Below are positions 1 through 33,584 of a DNA stretch of 52,293 bases, in pieces. The notes under the pieces were generated by a model that saw nothing but the letters and a program-made list of their open reading frames with translations, had not been told where the DNA came from and made no database searches. This DNA comes from an uncultured Eubacteriales bacterium. GTDB lineage: Bacteria > Bacillota > Clostridia > Oscillospirales > Oscillospiraceae. How positions within the stretch are numbered: position 1 is the first letter of the stretch; the number at the start of each line of letters is the position of its first letter. Where the stretch lies: NCBI GenBank assembly GCA_900319275.1, contig ONNS01000006.1, forward strand, positions 1-52,293, in the 5' to 3' direction. The position numbers were made by a program, and so were the translations under genes.

Positions 1-35
1 CATGTCTTCATGCAAAGGATCGGAGACTACAATGC

Positions 36-123
36 AATTTATTCCCAATACACGCCTTACGGCGTGTATACAGAGAAGTTTTAACTTCTCTGTGGCGGCA
101 TTTCGCCGCCTGGGGAATAAATT
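36..123. repeat. Cloverleaf palindromic element A
   Basis: A perfect 11-bp closing stem (36-46 AATTTATTCCC with 113-123) encloses three consecutive hairpins: 48-56/61-69 (9 bp, TTAC loop), 71-80/83-92 (10 bp by sequence, tiny loop) and 94-99/105-110 (6 bp). The element starts with TGCAAT (33-38) and ends in ATTATA. The third hairpin contains TTTCGCC. The same layout and end motifs recur at 31228-31322 and 31325-31430, so this is a repeat family. Whether it acts as DNA or RNA is unknown. Confidence 0.75.
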
Positions 124-145
124 ATAAAATTATACTTACGATTAT

Positions 146-2008: not shown

Positions 2009-2028
2009 GAGCGCAACTGAACAAAGTA

Positions 2029-2192
2029 TGATAGAGGCGCGGCAATCAAGAGTAGCTCTCATCCCCTCCGGCGGGAAACCGGAGAGGGCGAAAGGGTTTG
2101 CCGCCGAAGGATGACTGTGTTCCCGTGCAGTCATACCTGGGCCATGGGATAAGATCTCATGGACTGTCGCAAGCAATTGCGGAGAGCTGTCA
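2029..2192 (+). promoter_or_regulatory. Lysine riboswitch (L-box)
   Basis: Conserved L-box core segments are present in order: AGAGGCGCGG, AATCAAGAGTAGC, GCGAAAGGG, GCCGAAGGAT, GTCGCAAGCAATTGC and GGAGAGCTGTC. The P1 stem is TGATAG (2029-2034) with CTGTCA (2187-2192). A strong terminator follows at 2216-2255, so lysine binding should stop transcription before the antiporter gene. Identification is from recalled consensus; a covariance-model search (RF00168) would confirm it. Confidence 0.9.
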
Positions 2193-2215
2193 CACGGTAT
2201 GATCCTGCCTGGTTG

Positions 2216-7680: not shown

Positions 7681-7790
7681 GATATATATACTCCTTATCA
7701 ACTGTTATTTTGCCTCTCTTTCAAAGGGCATGCCGCCATTTGACAGTAAAGGGCTGTTTTCCCGGTTCGATCCGGGATTTATCTCAGTGA

Positions 7791-7926
7791 TAAGAGAACC
7801 TCTGTTACGGTTTTGATTCCGCTTTTTGCATTCTCTTTGACGACACACCTTATGCCGTGGCAGCATCCGCCGAGTCTTTCGACAACTGCCAATCCTCGTC
7901 ACCCGATCACGGGCCAGGCGCTATAG
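7791..7926 (-). ncRNA. glmS ribozyme (GlcN6P-responsive) in nagB leader
   Basis: Read leftward, the segment starts CTATA|GCGCCTGG, with predicted self-cleavage between 7922 and 7921. P1 follows (CCCG/CGGG), then TGACGAGGA, TGTCGAAAG and CTCGGCGGATGC, with P2 made by GGCAG/CTGCC. The 3' part has AAGGTGTGTC and a P4-like AGAGAA/TTCTCT stem with internal AACAGAGG. These are the glmS ribozyme core elements known from Bacillus and Thermoanaerobacter. It lies 110-245 bases upstream of the nagB start and downstream of a good promoter. Normally this ribozyme precedes glmS. A covariance search (RF00234) or in-line cleavage assay would confirm it. Confidence 0.9.
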
Positions 7927-8014
7927 CGATCCTCTTTTCCTCCTTTTGTGAGGACTGCCATTTACTCTGTACGCTGCCAGGATTTACCTATCAAGGACCA
8001 GCATATTCTAACTA

Positions 8015-29683: not shown

Positions 29684-31201
29684 TTATTTCTCCGCTTCCT
29701 TCAGCCGGTCGGCCAGCTCGCTCTCACCGGCGGACTTCTTCTTTGCGGCGGCCTTGTACTTGGCCACATTGGCGACGGAGTTCTTCACGGGCGTGATGGT
29801 GCCGGCGCCGGCGATGCAGCCGCCGGGACAGGCCATGCCTTCGAGCAGATAACCGTTGCGCTTGCCGGCCTTGGCCATCAGCAGCATCTTCTTGCACTCG
29901 CGCAGACCGTCGCCGTACTCGATCATGACCTCGCGGTCGGGCGCGATCTTTTCGATGTGCTCCTTGACCGCGGCGGCGACGCCGCCGACGACCGGGAAGC
30001 CGCGTCCGGCAGCCGTGCCGGCCGTGAAATCGGTGTCGCACTCGTCCGGCTCGAGCGTGTCGAAGTCGATATCCTTGGCGCGGAACATGCCGTTGATCTC
30101 CTCAAAGGTCAGCACAAAGTCCACGTCCGAGCGCACGGCGCGGCGGCTCGCCTCGAGCTTCTTGGCCGCGCAGGGGCCGACAAAGACGATCTTCGCGTCG
30201 GGGTGATCCTTCTTCACAAGGCGCGCCGTAATGACCATGGGCGTGAGCGACATGGAGATATACTCCGGATGGTCGGACATCATGCGCTTGGCCATGACGC
30301 TCCAGGCCGGGCAGCAGGAGGTGCCCATATAGGGCTGCTCGGCGGGGACCTTCTCGAGGAAGTCCTGTGCCTCTTCGATCGTGCAGAGGTCGGCGCCGAT
30401 GGCCACCTCCACGGTATCGGACATGCCCAGCAGGCGGATGGCCTTTTTCAGCTTGGCGGGCGTGGCGCCCGGGAACTGCCCGACAAAGGCCGGGGCCACA
30501 ATGGCGATCACCTCGGTGCCGGACTTGATGGCCTGGATCAGCTGGAAGATCTGGCTCTTGTCGGCGATAGCCCCGAAGGGGCAGTTGACCAGGCACATAC
30601 CGCAGGAGACGCATTTGTCATAGTCGATCTTGGCATGCCCGTGCTCGTCCGAGCCGATGGCGTCCATGCCGCAGGCCTTCGCGCAGGGGCGTTCGATCTT
30701 GCTGATGGCGTCGTAGGGGCACTGATCCACGCAGCGGCCGCACTTGATGCATTTATCGTTGTCGATCACACTGTGACCGTAGCGGTCGGTGGTGATGGCG
30801 TTTTTCGGGCAGACGGCCTGGCACGGGTGGGACAGGCAGCCCTGGCAGTTGGAGGACACGCGCATTTCCTTGCTGGGGCAGGCGTTGCAGGCAAAGGAGA
30901 TGACGTTCACCAGCGGCGGCTCGTAATACTTTTCGGGGATGTTCGCCTCTTCAATGCCGAGACTGGCCGGCCCGTACTCTGCGGGAGAGCGCAGGGGCAA
31001 ACCGCAGGCCAGGCGCAGACGCTCGGTCACGATGGCGCGCTCGCGAAACACGCTGTCGCGGTACTTTGCCACGTCGCCGGGGATGATCTTATAGGGGATC
31101 TTGTCGATGCGCGACAGATCGCCGCCCTCATAGGCCAGGCGGGCGACTTCCTCAAACACGTCTCTGCGCAGGTCGTCAATAACGCTGTGTATTCCTCTCA
31201 T
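29684..31201 (-). CDS. Group B monomeric [FeFe] hydrogenase
   Basis: A 505-aa iron hydrogenase of the group B (M-type, ferredoxin-linked) class. An N-terminal helical domain (1-95) is followed by a Cys-rich region with several [4Fe-4S] sites (C105, C108, C119, C122, C127, C131; C151/154/157/161; C173, C177; C197/200/203/207). The H-domain has TSCCPAW (294-300), GPCAAKKLE (C344) and MACPGGCIAGAGT (C458, C462); the GxGT rather than GGGQP end marks group B. It would evolve H2 from reduced ferredoxin or sense redox state. GGAAGGA lies seven bases before the ATG. The predicted transcript carries two cloverleaf elements as its leader (31228-31430). It is monocistronic. Confidence 0.92.
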   Translation of the reverse strand: MRGIHSVIDDLRRDVFEEVARLAYEGGDLSRIDKIPYKIIPGDVAKYRDSVFRERAIVTERLRLACGLPLRSPAEYGPASLGIEEANIPEKYYEPPLVNVISFACNACPSKEMRVSSNCQGCLSHPCQAVCPKNAITTDRYGHSVIDNDKCIKCGRCVDQCPYDAISKIERPCAKACGMDAIGSDEHGHAKIDYDKCVSCGMCLVNCPFGAIADKSQIFQLIQAIKSGTEVIAIVAPAFVGQFPGATPAKLKKAIRLLGMSDTVEVAIGADLCTIEEAQDFLEKVPAEQPYMGTSCCPAWSVMAKRMMSDHPEYISMSLTPMVITARLVKKDHPDAKIVFVGPCAAKKLEASRRAVRSDVDFVLTFEEINGMFRAKDIDFDTLEPDECDTDFTAGTAAGRGFPVVGGVAAAVKEHIEKIAPDREVMIEYGDGLRECKKMLLMAKAGKRNGYLLEGMACPGGCIAGAGTITPVKNSVANVAKYKAAAKKKSAGESELADRLKEAEK

Positions 31202-31227
31202 AGTACTGTCCTTCCCTTATATGTTCT

Positions 31228-31322
31228 ATAATGAATATAGGATGGCGAAAAGCCAAAAAGCTTTTCGCCGCGCCACTTTGTGGCGCAGCAAAACAGCACA
31301 GCTGTTTTGCCATATATTCATT
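31228..31322. repeat. Cloverleaf palindromic element B (inverted)
   Basis: Closing stem 31230-31239 with 31313-31322 encloses three perfect hairpins: 31244-31253/31260-31269, 31270-31276/31280-31286 and 31288-31297/31301-31310. On the minus strand it begins TGCAAT and ends ATTAT, and the last hairpin ends TTTTCGCC, as in elements A and C. It lies tail-to-tail with element C. Confidence 0.8.
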
Positions 31323-31324
31323 GC

Positions 31325-31430
31325 AATGAGTATCGGCGAATGATTCAAGGAATCATTCGCTGCCAAACGTGTCGTTTGGCAGCGAAATCAATCGAATCCT
31401 CGATTGATTTCGCCATCCGATAGTCATTAT
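31325..31430. repeat. Cloverleaf palindromic element C
   Basis: Closing stem 31325-31336 with 31417-31428 (11 of 12 paired) encloses three perfect hairpins: 31337-31346/31350-31359, 31360-31369/31373-31382 and 31383-31395/31400-31412. Loops are 3-4 nt. It begins TGCAAT and ends ATTAT. The outer 20 bases of element B (31228-31247) and C (31411-31430) are inverted repeats of each other with two mismatches. Confidence 0.8.
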
Positions 31431-31442
31431 GATTCCATCTAC

Positions 31443-31472
31443 AGCATACCACCTGGCGGGGTGTTTAATCAA
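31443..31472 (-). promoter_or_regulatory. Candidate promoter of group B hydrogenase
   Basis: Leftward TTGATT (31467-31472), 18-bp spacer, TATGCT (31443-31448). The transcript would start near 31436, so elements C and B would form most of the 5' leader. Confidence 0.5.
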
Positions 31473-31497
31473 TAGTGAATCTTCATAAATCTGCCGA

Positions 31498-31617
31498 TCA
31501 GGCCAGAAGCTCCATCCAGCTGCCGAAGGATACCGGGCGGTCGCAGACGGTCTCCGCGCGGCAGAGCCGCCCGATCTTCCCGCTCGGGATGTTTTTCCTC
31601 GACCGCATCCAGCACAT
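31498..31617 (-). pseudogene. Possible gene remnant
   Basis: A 39-codon leftward frame (GKIGRLCRAETVCDRPVSFG in the middle) has natural composition and ends in TGA at 31498. The start of the same stretch reads well in another frame (LDAVEEKHPE), which would fit a frameshifted C-terminal remnant. I do not recognise the family. Confidence 0.25.
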
Positions 31618-31620
31618 GGC

Positions 31621-31649
31621 AGGACAGTTTCGTTATTTTTTTGTATAAT
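31621..31649 (+). promoter_or_regulatory. Candidate promoter of ABC exporter operon
   Basis: TATAAT (31644-31649) with a weak -35 (AGGACA 31621-31626, 17-bp spacer). It leaves a leader of about 180 nt that contains a GTCCGG/CCGGAC hairpin near 31785-31806. Confidence 0.4.
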
Positions 31650-31835
31650 TTGTTTTCATTTCAGCATTTTTGTGGTATTCTGAAGTTATTGAGCACAGGA
31701 TGATGCGTTCTTTTCTGACAGCAAACCGGCCAGTCCCTTGATGCTGCATGCCGTGCAGAAGAAATGGACAAGCCGTGACGCCGCTGTCCGGCGAAGTCCC
31801 CCGGACAAATCGTATGCACCGGAGATGACATACAC

Positions 31836-33584
31836 GTGAAAAAGCTTTTGAAATATTTAAAAAAATACTGGCTGCTGGCGATTCTGGCGGCCGGCTTCAT
31901 GGTGGCGGAGGTCTATGTGGACCTCTACCAGCCGCGCATGATGCAGCGGATCGTGGACGACGGCATTCTGGGGCTGAACAACAACGGCGTCTCGGATCTG
32001 CCTCTTGTTGTCACGACAGGACTCCGGATGCTGCTGGTCGTGCTGGCGGGCGGCCTCTGCGGGCTGCTGTCGGGCGTGTTTGCCAACGTGACCGGCCAGA
32101 ACTACGGCAACGACATCCGCAAGGCCTGCTTTGAGAAGGTCATGCGCTTCAGCTTTGAGCAGACCGACGATTTCTCCACGGGCTCGCTGATCACGCGCAT
32201 CACCAACGATGTGACGCAGCTGCAGCAGCTGGTCATGCAGATGATCCGCGGCTTCGTGCGCTGCATGATGTTTTTCATCGGCGGTACGGCGGCGCTGTTA
32301 AGTCTGGACCTGAGCTTCGGCGTGATCGTGGCCTGCGCCTTCCCGCTGATCCTCATTGACATCATCTTTGTGGTCTGGCGCACCAATCCCCTGTTTACGG
32401 TTCTGCAGGAGAGTCTTGACAAGCTCAACGGCATCATTCAGGAGAATGTGGCGGGTATCCGCGTGGTCAAGGCCTTTGTGCAGGAAAAGCGTGAAAAAGC
32501 GCGCTTTGACGCTGCCAACCGGCATCTGGTGGATACCCAGTTCACCGTACAGGTCATGCTCTCGTTTCTGCGGCCGGTGATGAACATCGTGCTGAACATC
32601 GCCGTCGTCGGCATCCTCTATGTGGGCTCCTACCAGGTGCGGCAGGGGGACGTGGCCCCGGGCATGGTGATGGCCGCAATCACCTATATCTCTCAGATCC
32701 TCAACGGCATGATGATGCTCGCCATGATCTTCCAGACGCTCTCGCGCGGACTTGCCTCGGCCAGGCGCATCCAGGAGGTTCTGAATACCGAGTCGGATAT
32801 CGTGCAGGATTCGGCCCTCGGCACGGAGACATCCGGCGAGCGCGGCTCGGTATGCTTCCGGGGCGTCAGCTTTGCCTATGCGGACAACGGCAAAACCGTG
32901 CTGCACGACATCGACCTGGAGGTGAAGCCGGGCGAGACGCTGGGCATCATCGGCGCCACCGGCTGCGGCAAATCCAGCCTTATCAGTCTGATCCCCCGTT
33001 TCTATGATGCAACCGAGGGGCAGGTGCTGGTGGACGGCGTCGACGTGCGCGCCTACGATCCCGCCGCGCTGCGGGAGAAGGTCACGGTCTGCCTGCAGAA
33101 AAGCGAGCTGTTCTCCACGACGATCGGTGACAATATCGCCATCGGGAAGCCCGGCGCAGCGCAGGCGGAAATCGAAGCCGCGGCAAAGGCGGCCCAGGCG
33201 GACGAATTTATCCGTCAGCAGCCCGAGGGCTACGACACGGCCGTAGCCGAGCGCGGCATGAGTCTCTCGGGTGGGCAGCGTCAGCGCGTCGCCATTGCCC
33301 GCGCACTCTTAAAGCGCAGTGAGATCCTGATTTTTGACGATTCTACGAGCGCGCTCGATCTGAAAACCGAGGCAAAGCTATACGAGGCGCTGCGGCGCGA
33401 GTACGCCGGGACGACGAAAATCATCATCGCCCAGCGCATCGCCTCGGTCAAGGATGCCGACCGGATCGCGGTGCTCGACGGCGGCAGCATCGCCGCCTGC
33501 GGCAGTCACAGCGAGCTGATGGCGACAAGCCCGATCTATCGGGATATCTATGATTCCCAGCTGAAAGAGGAGGCGACGGCATGA
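31836..33584 (+). CDS. Heterodimeric ABC exporter, degenerate-site subunit
   Basis: A 582-aa type IV ABC exporter half: six membrane helices (about 1-310) and a nucleotide-binding domain (about 335-580). Walker A is GATGCGKSSL, signature LSGGQRQRVAI, but Walker B ends DDST, with Asp in place of the catalytic Glu, and the switch residue region reads AQRIAS rather than AHR. This marks the catalytically weak half of a heterodimer such as BmrCD, LmrCD or TM287/288. GTG start at 31836 with GGAG upstream; the nearby ATG at 31825 is out of frame. It overlaps the next gene by ATGA. Probable role: export of drugs, peptides or lipids. Confidence 0.9.
   Translation: MKKLLKYLKKYWLLAILAAGFMVAEVYVDLYQPRMMQRIVDDGILGLNNNGVSDLPLVVTTGLRMLLVVLAGGLCGLLSGVFANVTGQNYGNDIRKACFEKVMRFSFEQTDDFSTGSLITRITNDVTQLQQLVMQMIRGFVRCMMFFIGGTAALLSLDLSFGVIVACAFPLILIDIIFVVWRTNPLFTVLQESLDKLNGIIQENVAGIRVVKAFVQEKREKARFDAANRHLVDTQFTVQVMLSFLRPVMNIVLNIAVVGILYVGSYQVRQGDVAPGMVMAAITYISQILNGMMMLAMIFQTLSRGLASARRIQEVLNTESDIVQDSALGTETSGERGSVCFRGVSFAYADNGKTVLHDIDLEVKPGETLGIIGATGCGKSSLISLIPRFYDATEGQVLVDGVDVRAYDPAALREKVTVCLQKSELFSTTIGDNIAIGKPGAAQAEIEAAAKAAQADEFIRQQPEGYDTAVAERGMSLSGGQRQRVAIARALLKRSEILIFDDSTSALDLKTEAKLYEALRREYAGTTKIIIAQRIASVKDADRIAVLDGGSIAACGSHSELMATSPIYRDIYDSQLKEEATA

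Follow-up and report, generated by a model that had tools for sequence, protein, structure and literature searches.

A probable MITE-like element of one bacterial genus that folds, with no strand bias, into two cloverleaves, and two or more families of like shape in its genome

Descriptions of small mobile repeats of bacteria mostly refer to the ends or to a single palindrome. The units of REPINs are palindromes of 20-40 bp, and in REPIN/RAYT systems insertion is asymmetric, uses a single strand and leaves no duplication. REP/REPIN-RAYT systems are treated in the accessible parts of PMC2817692 and PMC3733652, and the latter also covers the bacterial MITEs RUP, NEMIS, ERIC and Nezha. According to the portion of PMC10969869 available to us, MITEs are shorter than 500 bp, have inverted ends and a duplicated target, lie mostly between genes and form a stable fold. 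The repeats bcr1-bcr3 of the Bacillus cereus group are presented in the available excerpts of PMC6542083 and PMC3446304 as multi-copy, MITE-like repeats of one bacterial group, often found in UTRs, with a mobility associated with a TTTAT motif.

Here we describe a folded feature in DNA of an uncultured bacterium, where the window is the whole stretch of DNA analysed, 52,293 nucleotides in length. We estimate at roughly 0.72 the probability that it is one copy from a family of non-autonomous, MITE-like mobile elements that are defined by their ends together with their fold. Among the open papers listed by our literature searches, none was seen to describe such an element.

The window element and its family

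The window copy occupies 31228..31430 (annotated without strand) and has 203 bp, the mode of the family being 204 bp. Unit A (31230..31322, plus strand) is enclosed by a closing stem of 31230-31239 with 31313-31322 and holds hairpin 1 (31244..31269, 10 bp), hairpin 2 (31270..31286, 7 bp) and hairpin 3 (31288..31310, 10 bp). In unit B (31325..31428, plus strand), 31325-31335 pair with 31418-31428, with one internal mismatch, around hairpin 4 (31336..31360, 11 bp), hairpin 5 (31361..31381, 9 bp) and hairpin 6 (31382..31413, 14 bp), all six hairpins being given on the plus strand. The units are linked by a central join, TCATTGCAATGA (31318..31329, without strand), with a TGCA core that is common to the families C and D described below. 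An earlier sequence-only reading had reported the six perfect hairpins in two sets of three with a closing stem for each set, as well as the outer ends ATAATGA..GGATGGCG and the join, and these were confirmed, with hairpin stems of 10, 7, 10, 11, 9 and 14 bp. The outer ends also pair with each other as it had claimed, over 23 nt at 91%, and so form terminal inverted repeats like those of a MITE. The flanking AT on the left (31228..31229) and on the right (31429..31430), both without strand, are probably the two sides of a 2-bp duplication, following the family rule seen at three empty sites of other copies.

As RNA, the segment 31218-31440 folded to -110.8 kcal/mol compared to a shuffled mean of -52.75 (z -12.9), and as DNA, 31228-31430 folded to -78.1 compared to -27.3 (z -15.9); none of 200 shuffles was as low in either case. 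The optimum of the DNA fold consists of two cloverleaves with three hairpins each. A cloverleaf scan of the window, looking for three adjacent perfect hairpins within a closing stem, returned two matches, unit A (31230-31322) and 36-123. Unit B was probably missed because its hairpins overlap once they are extended to full length. No Rfam family matches the window element, and ARAGORN detected no tRNA genes in the window. Elsewhere in the window, Rfam scores above gathering were obtained for a lysine riboswitch (2024-2197, plus strand) and a glmS ribozyme (7782-7933, minus strand).

The element is dispersed and restricted to one genus. A BLASTN-type search of 40 genomes gave 57 matching pieces in the window's own genome (G000) and matches in 11 genomes altogether, these being its own and 10 of the 24 others of the genus; the 15 genomes taken from other families had none. 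As an exact match, the end motif ATAATGANTATNNGATGGCGAA was present in 37 of the 102 genomes examined for the genus, G000 among them, with 23 occurrences in G000 and up to 37 in G087. A reversed-pattern control had 0 matches in the 102 genomes, and the motif itself was absent from all 393 genomes searched in the rest of the order, which included 42 from the same family. Both the size (mode 204 bp, under 500 bp) and the copy number (23 end motifs in G000) are those of a MITE. When contigs of GTDB genomes were scanned, the motif occurred in at least 114 stretches. Among the 80 titled matches listed, nearly all were uncultured Oscillospiraceae, Ruminococcaceae, Clostridiales or Clostridia MAGs, and rumen, sheep or Lapin (rabbit) were frequent in the titles listed. 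In a Bacteroidetes match (L107) and an untitled one (L151) the motif is not followed by an element, whereas the copy in a 'Rikenella' bin (L111) is genuine. Phage and plasmid sequences had no match to the element, and in viral contigs there was a single end motif, again not followed by an element, and no centre motif.

The family ends are ATAATGATTAT..GATGGCG. An end consensus was drawn from 260 ends, and the commonest distance between paired ends is 204 bp. There is a second size class of 189-196 bp, many of its contigs being titled Lapin, and deleted copies are shorter. Elements with unit A only exist (L101, L118), which is explained by deletion between TCATT repeats, and no forms with unit B only were present among the matches listed. 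Three copies (L075, L133, L153) are 355-356 bp long because the loop of hairpin 4 contains some 152 bp of inserted, hairpin-rich sequence; the two titled contigs among them are UBA3758. Several contigs of G000 (for example C30, C38, C41, C56 and C160), as well as the start of the window, break inside these elements, and assemblies of the genus are therefore probably fragmented by them.

Covariation of the fold

We aligned 67 distinct full copies. From 101 candidate end pairs, the removal of identical sequences, one copy with N and the low-scoring L089 left 83, and 16 copies shorter than 199 bp were left out. Over 81 pairs, 95.1% of the cells were paired and 38 pairs had changed on both sides, with a covariation score of 0.125 vs 0.046 and 0 of 500 shuffles as high. 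Taken by themselves, the closing stems had double changes in 11 of their 21 pairs (0.092 vs 0.038; again 0 of 500 shuffles as high); one pair in the closing stem of unit B goes from G-C to C-G in 14 copies, and one pair supplies 15 of the 33 double-changed cells. When the closing stems were slid by +1 as a control, 8 of the 21 pairs still had double changes, but in 12 cells compared to 33. The long stem between the two terminal inverted repeats behaved differently, as 83.7% of its cells were paired, 1 of 16 pairs was doubly changed, and the covariation of 0.064 vs 0.065 shuffled was reached by 287 of 500 shuffles. Since the closing stems covary and the long stem does not, the two-cloverleaf form is the covarying one, and the switch to a single long-stem form that had been proposed from the window copy is not supported.

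A few pairs fit poorly: column 8/91 in the closing stem of unit A is unpaired in 54 of the 67 copies, column 105/206 in unit B in 19 and the loop-proximal pair 151/155 in 56. The copies also share ancestry, and cell counts are therefore counts of non-independent events. Among nearest neighbours (48 comparisons with at most 25 differences each), unpaired sites differed at 275 of 1909 positions, and the stems had 125 single and 32 double changes, 30 of these compensatory, in 3591 pairs. Each half of the element keeps its own three-armed cloverleaf via compensatory changes. The sequence-only reading had suggested a structure kept under sequence change and had set as its test copies with compensatory changes in related genomes, and such copies were found, with 38 of the 81 pairs concerned.

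If the fold were selected on one RNA strand, G-U intermediates should outnumber A-C. We observed 46 G-T and 38 A-C mismatches in the core pairs (75 pairs, with the seven poorest excluded), 41 G-T, 42 A-C and 42 other changes among the single changes between nearest neighbours, and 36 G-T and 54 A-C over all hairpin pairs. The near-equal numbers argue against selection on one RNA strand, and as the mismatches have no strand bias, the fold would be kept as DNA, equally on both strands, or by a mutational process.

A mutational process could produce perfect arms without selection, if template switching during replication corrects imperfect palindromes and introduces paired changes in one step. 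The rarity of G-T intermediates (46 of 5018 core cells), while many pairs show two or three Watson-Crick types, fits this explanation, as do the 30 double compensatory changes between close neighbours. However, uncorrected single changes exceed the doubles (125 vs 30), the closing stems, with arms about 75-110 nt apart, covary too, and the layout of two units with three arms recurs in families C and D, which makes correction unlikely as the origin of the fold.

It is also rather unlikely that the fold acts as RNA, so that transcribed copies in leaders or 3' regions would stabilise, terminate or insulate transcripts. The RNA fold is very stable, and 35 of 125 outward-facing neighbour genes start 10-45 bp from an end of the element. 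Inside the window copy there is one terminator-like match on the minus strand (31293-31263), which is at about chance level (0.7 expected). Against an RNA role, G-U shows no excess over A-C (46 vs 38; 41 vs 42), no Rfam family fits, and the element lies beside gene starts in either of its orientations, with 21 A ends, 13 B ends and 1 unassigned end. Of 240 ends with a neighbour gene, as seen by a crude gene caller, the gene points away at 125 and towards the element at 115. The flank profile had hinted at a strong preference for gene starts, but the proportion is 28% compared to 22.9% for TATA sites of the same intergenic DNA, and any preference is mild at most. The sequence-only reading had offered structure in DNA and structure in RNA as alternatives, and a DNA transposition substrate is the branch that is supported.

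Insertion sites, look-alike families and mobilisation

Empty sites were searched by joining the flanks of each copy with one inserted AT and querying all loci collected. All three empty counterparts inspected show one AT in place of the AT-element-AT found at filled sites. They are L117 for the filled L165, inside a coding sequence, L157 for L156, upstream of a gene resembling rpsT, and L008 for L049. The AT duplication is read from these three cross-species comparisons, at about 70-75% identity and with a query that carried one AT added between the flanks; a match at L157:6195 was the same copy again, and L164, listed as a second counterpart of L165, lies outside the three inspected. The orthologous site of the window copy (L185) is without the element and too diverged for an exact junction. 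In four loci (L078, L094, L133, L167) copies abut in tandem with one common AT. Outside the A end, T stands at -1 in 55% and at -2 in 57% (n=129), and outside the B end in 60% and 46% (n=113), giving a symmetric target, Y-T-[AT]-A-R. As in MITEs, there is a target-site duplication with empty sites (AT, three sites). The symmetric target together with the 2-bp duplication suggests a double-strand, DDE-like reaction. It may be that a trans-acting enzyme, possibly of the DDE type given the symmetric target, cuts double-stranded DNA at the element ends with a 2-bp stagger, and that the cloverleaves serve in DNA form, for example as four-way junctions of a single strand or a cruciform, in mobilisation or replication.

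The mention of an 'element C' in the sequence-only reading led to a genuine second family at window positions 1..125 (plus strand). This copy is cut by the contig start, and its second unit (about 36-122) is whole, with hairpins at 48-69, 70-93 and 94-110 and a closing stem. Family C occupies eight places in G000, with copies at L356, L358, L359 and L361, and was found in none of 101 other genomes of the genus (E 0.001). Four full copies are 187-198 bp long when counted from one AT to the other, and those at L358, L359 and L361 fold into two units, each with a closing stem and three hairpins. Family D, of 186 bp, is present at four places in G000 and as a partial copy in G080 (locations L026:2383-2569, L024:1625-1811, L355 and L357, both at 1318-1504, and L334:2229-2312), and the copy in L026 folds into two units of three hairpins.

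The cloverleaf scan was also run over 363 sequences (1.53 Mb, a total in which locus overlaps are counted twice). It found 114 distinct matches, which were 99 of the 204-bp family, 11 of C, 4 of D and nothing else, with distinct referring to unit sequences, not places, because loci overlap between retrievals. There were 0 matches in the shuffled window and shuffled L069 and later loci, and 0 in 50 kb of E. coli K-12. Relaxing the scan (stem 5) added two non-family matches (L122, L160) that look like chance. Variants with two hairpins with long stems or with four hairpins had zero matches, but as the known families were missed too, these variants are uninformative. Short-word BLASTN between C, D and the 204-bp family detected no significant similarity (best E 0.17). 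Families C and D have the closing stem GTCTCC/GGAGAC in common and ends that are alike by eye, and may therefore be distant relatives. Their copies have AT at the start and end; the left AT is preceded by T in 7 of 8 and the right AT is followed by A in 7 of 8. At two places (L355, L357), C abuts D with one common AT. The centres of the three families are CATTGCAATG, CAATGCAATT and CGTTGCAACG, all with TGCA. C and D resemble the 204-bp family in being built from two three-armed units, in their similar size (186-198 bp), in the AT boundary and in the TGCA centre. In L359, the C copy near 1596 is followed by an almost perfect palindrome of about 50 bp, which has a single hairpin and ends like those of D and appears to be a minimal derivative of that family.

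At least three families in one genome follow the plan [AT-end]-[closing stem + 3 arms]-[TGCA centre]-[closing stem + 3 arms]-[AT-end], and on this ground we propose, tentatively, a structural class of mobile DNA. In such a class an enzyme or host factor would read the fold, as paired four-way junctions, together with the short ends, and the arms would be free to drift or be replaced. The fold of two three-armed junctions is constant over the 67 copies and recurs in two other families, and if structure is the recognised feature, the idea that mobile DNA is read by its shape can be put to the test with this element of uncultured gut bacteria.

Candidate enzymes were sought with transposase profiles, rve in 5 and then 102 genomes and DDE_Tnp_1, DDE_3 and Y1 in 102 each. 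The end motif was present in 20 of 55 rve-positive genomes, 15 of 40 with DDE_Tnp_1, 3 of 17 with DDE_3 and 10 of 28 with IS200-type Y1, compared to 37 of 102 overall, and none of these four was positively associated with element-bearing genomes. The ends of the 204-bp family were found as a pair in 0 of the 110 transposase loci retrieved (rve, DDE_Tnp_1, DDE_3, Y1), which are part of all matches and were screened for these ends, and for C and D by BLASTN only. A parent transposase with the same ends, as expected for a MITE, was not found among the four families tried in these incomplete MAGs, and for this reason we use the label MITE-like. As MAGs lose repeats and insertion sequences, this absence is weak evidence. 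Three candidates for autonomous copies were rejected: in G041, ends 1,211 bp apart belong to two short elements flanking a gene; in L334 an IS3-like element has a partial D copy nearby and, by eye, a transposase with no D ends around it; and L289 (G042:C35), which lies at a contig end, has an apparent IS200-type element that starts within hairpin 1 of a copy.

A REPIN-like system, in which a RAYT or other Y1 HUH transposase mobilises single-stranded hairpin elements, is improbable here. Weak-scoring Y1-like proteins (about 160-260 aa) are indeed commoner in element-bearing genomes, and the motif was present in 16 of 27 genomes with a RAYT-like Y1 compared to 21 of 75 without (Fisher p 0.005, uncorrected, for one of four classes that were sorted by hand). 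However, of the 15 genomes that contain at least five motifs, only 6 have a RAYT-like Y1 protein, and among the 20 loci retrieved for Y1 hits an element is present in just one (L286), where it lies about 2.4 kb away from the gene; no RAYT gene was found beside or among the repeats in these loci. By eye, the Y1 fragment beside an end in L289 appears to be an IS200-type element inserted into hairpin 1. The symmetric T and the AT on both sides also misfit insertion of one strand, and the asymmetric insertion without duplication known from REPIN/RAYT systems was not observed.

The window copy lies between an ABC transporter gene (31836..33584, plus strand) and an [FeFe] hydrogenase-like gene with Fe_hyd_lg_C and Fer4 (29684..31201, minus strand), which starts 26 bases from the element. 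The 5' end of the hydrogenase gene has matches in 28 other genomes of the genus, and in the 11 loci retrieved from these (L185-L195) the element was found in 0; the closest of them, L185 (87%), has a short upstream region. Two sigma-70-like sites occur in 31190-31840 (0.9 expected), at 31404-31433 and 31621-31649, and as both are on the plus strand, none is directed at the hydrogenase gene. A conserved regulatory leader of the hydrogenase operon, for which the distance of 26 bases to the start codon speaks, is thus highly improbable, as the element is a dispersed repeat, absent from 11 of 11 orthologous loci retrieved, and the right strand has no promoter-like site. The hydrogenase neighbourhood is incidental. 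What stands of the earlier interpretation is the conserved structure and its probable use as a DNA transposition substrate; the hydrogenase leader, its candidate promoter and the long-stem switch were not borne out. Folded 'leaders' in MAGs may be insertions, which calls for caution.

Comparison with known systems

The MITE-like element resembles the cis-regulatory RNAs of Rfam in having a conserved secondary structure with compensatory changes. It differs from them in its mismatches without strand bias, its dispersed insertion and the lack of a covariance-model match in Rfam, and it was not conserved upstream of orthologues (0 of 11). With REPINs it has in common hairpin units that are dispersed and arranged as an inverted pair. 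In contrast to REPINs, the units are four-way junctions of about 90-100 nt, with terminal inverted repeats and AT on both sides, and no adjacent RAYT gene was found in the 20 loci retrieved around Y1 hits.

Going by their description in the available parts of PMC6542083 and PMC3446304, bcr1-bcr3 are likewise group-restricted, multi-copy and MITE-like. Unlike in these repeats, the boundary of the window family is an AT in a T..A context, and the TTTAT motif given for the bcr repeats in those parts was not found. Compared to MITEs, by description only and as far as the available portion of PMC10969869 extends, the element is set apart by its two three-armed cloverleaves with covarying arms and closing stems, by three families with one layout and by a parent insertion sequence that was not found. 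It shares with MITEs, as described in the same portion, the short length, the inverted ends, the duplicated target, the mainly intergenic location and the stable fold.
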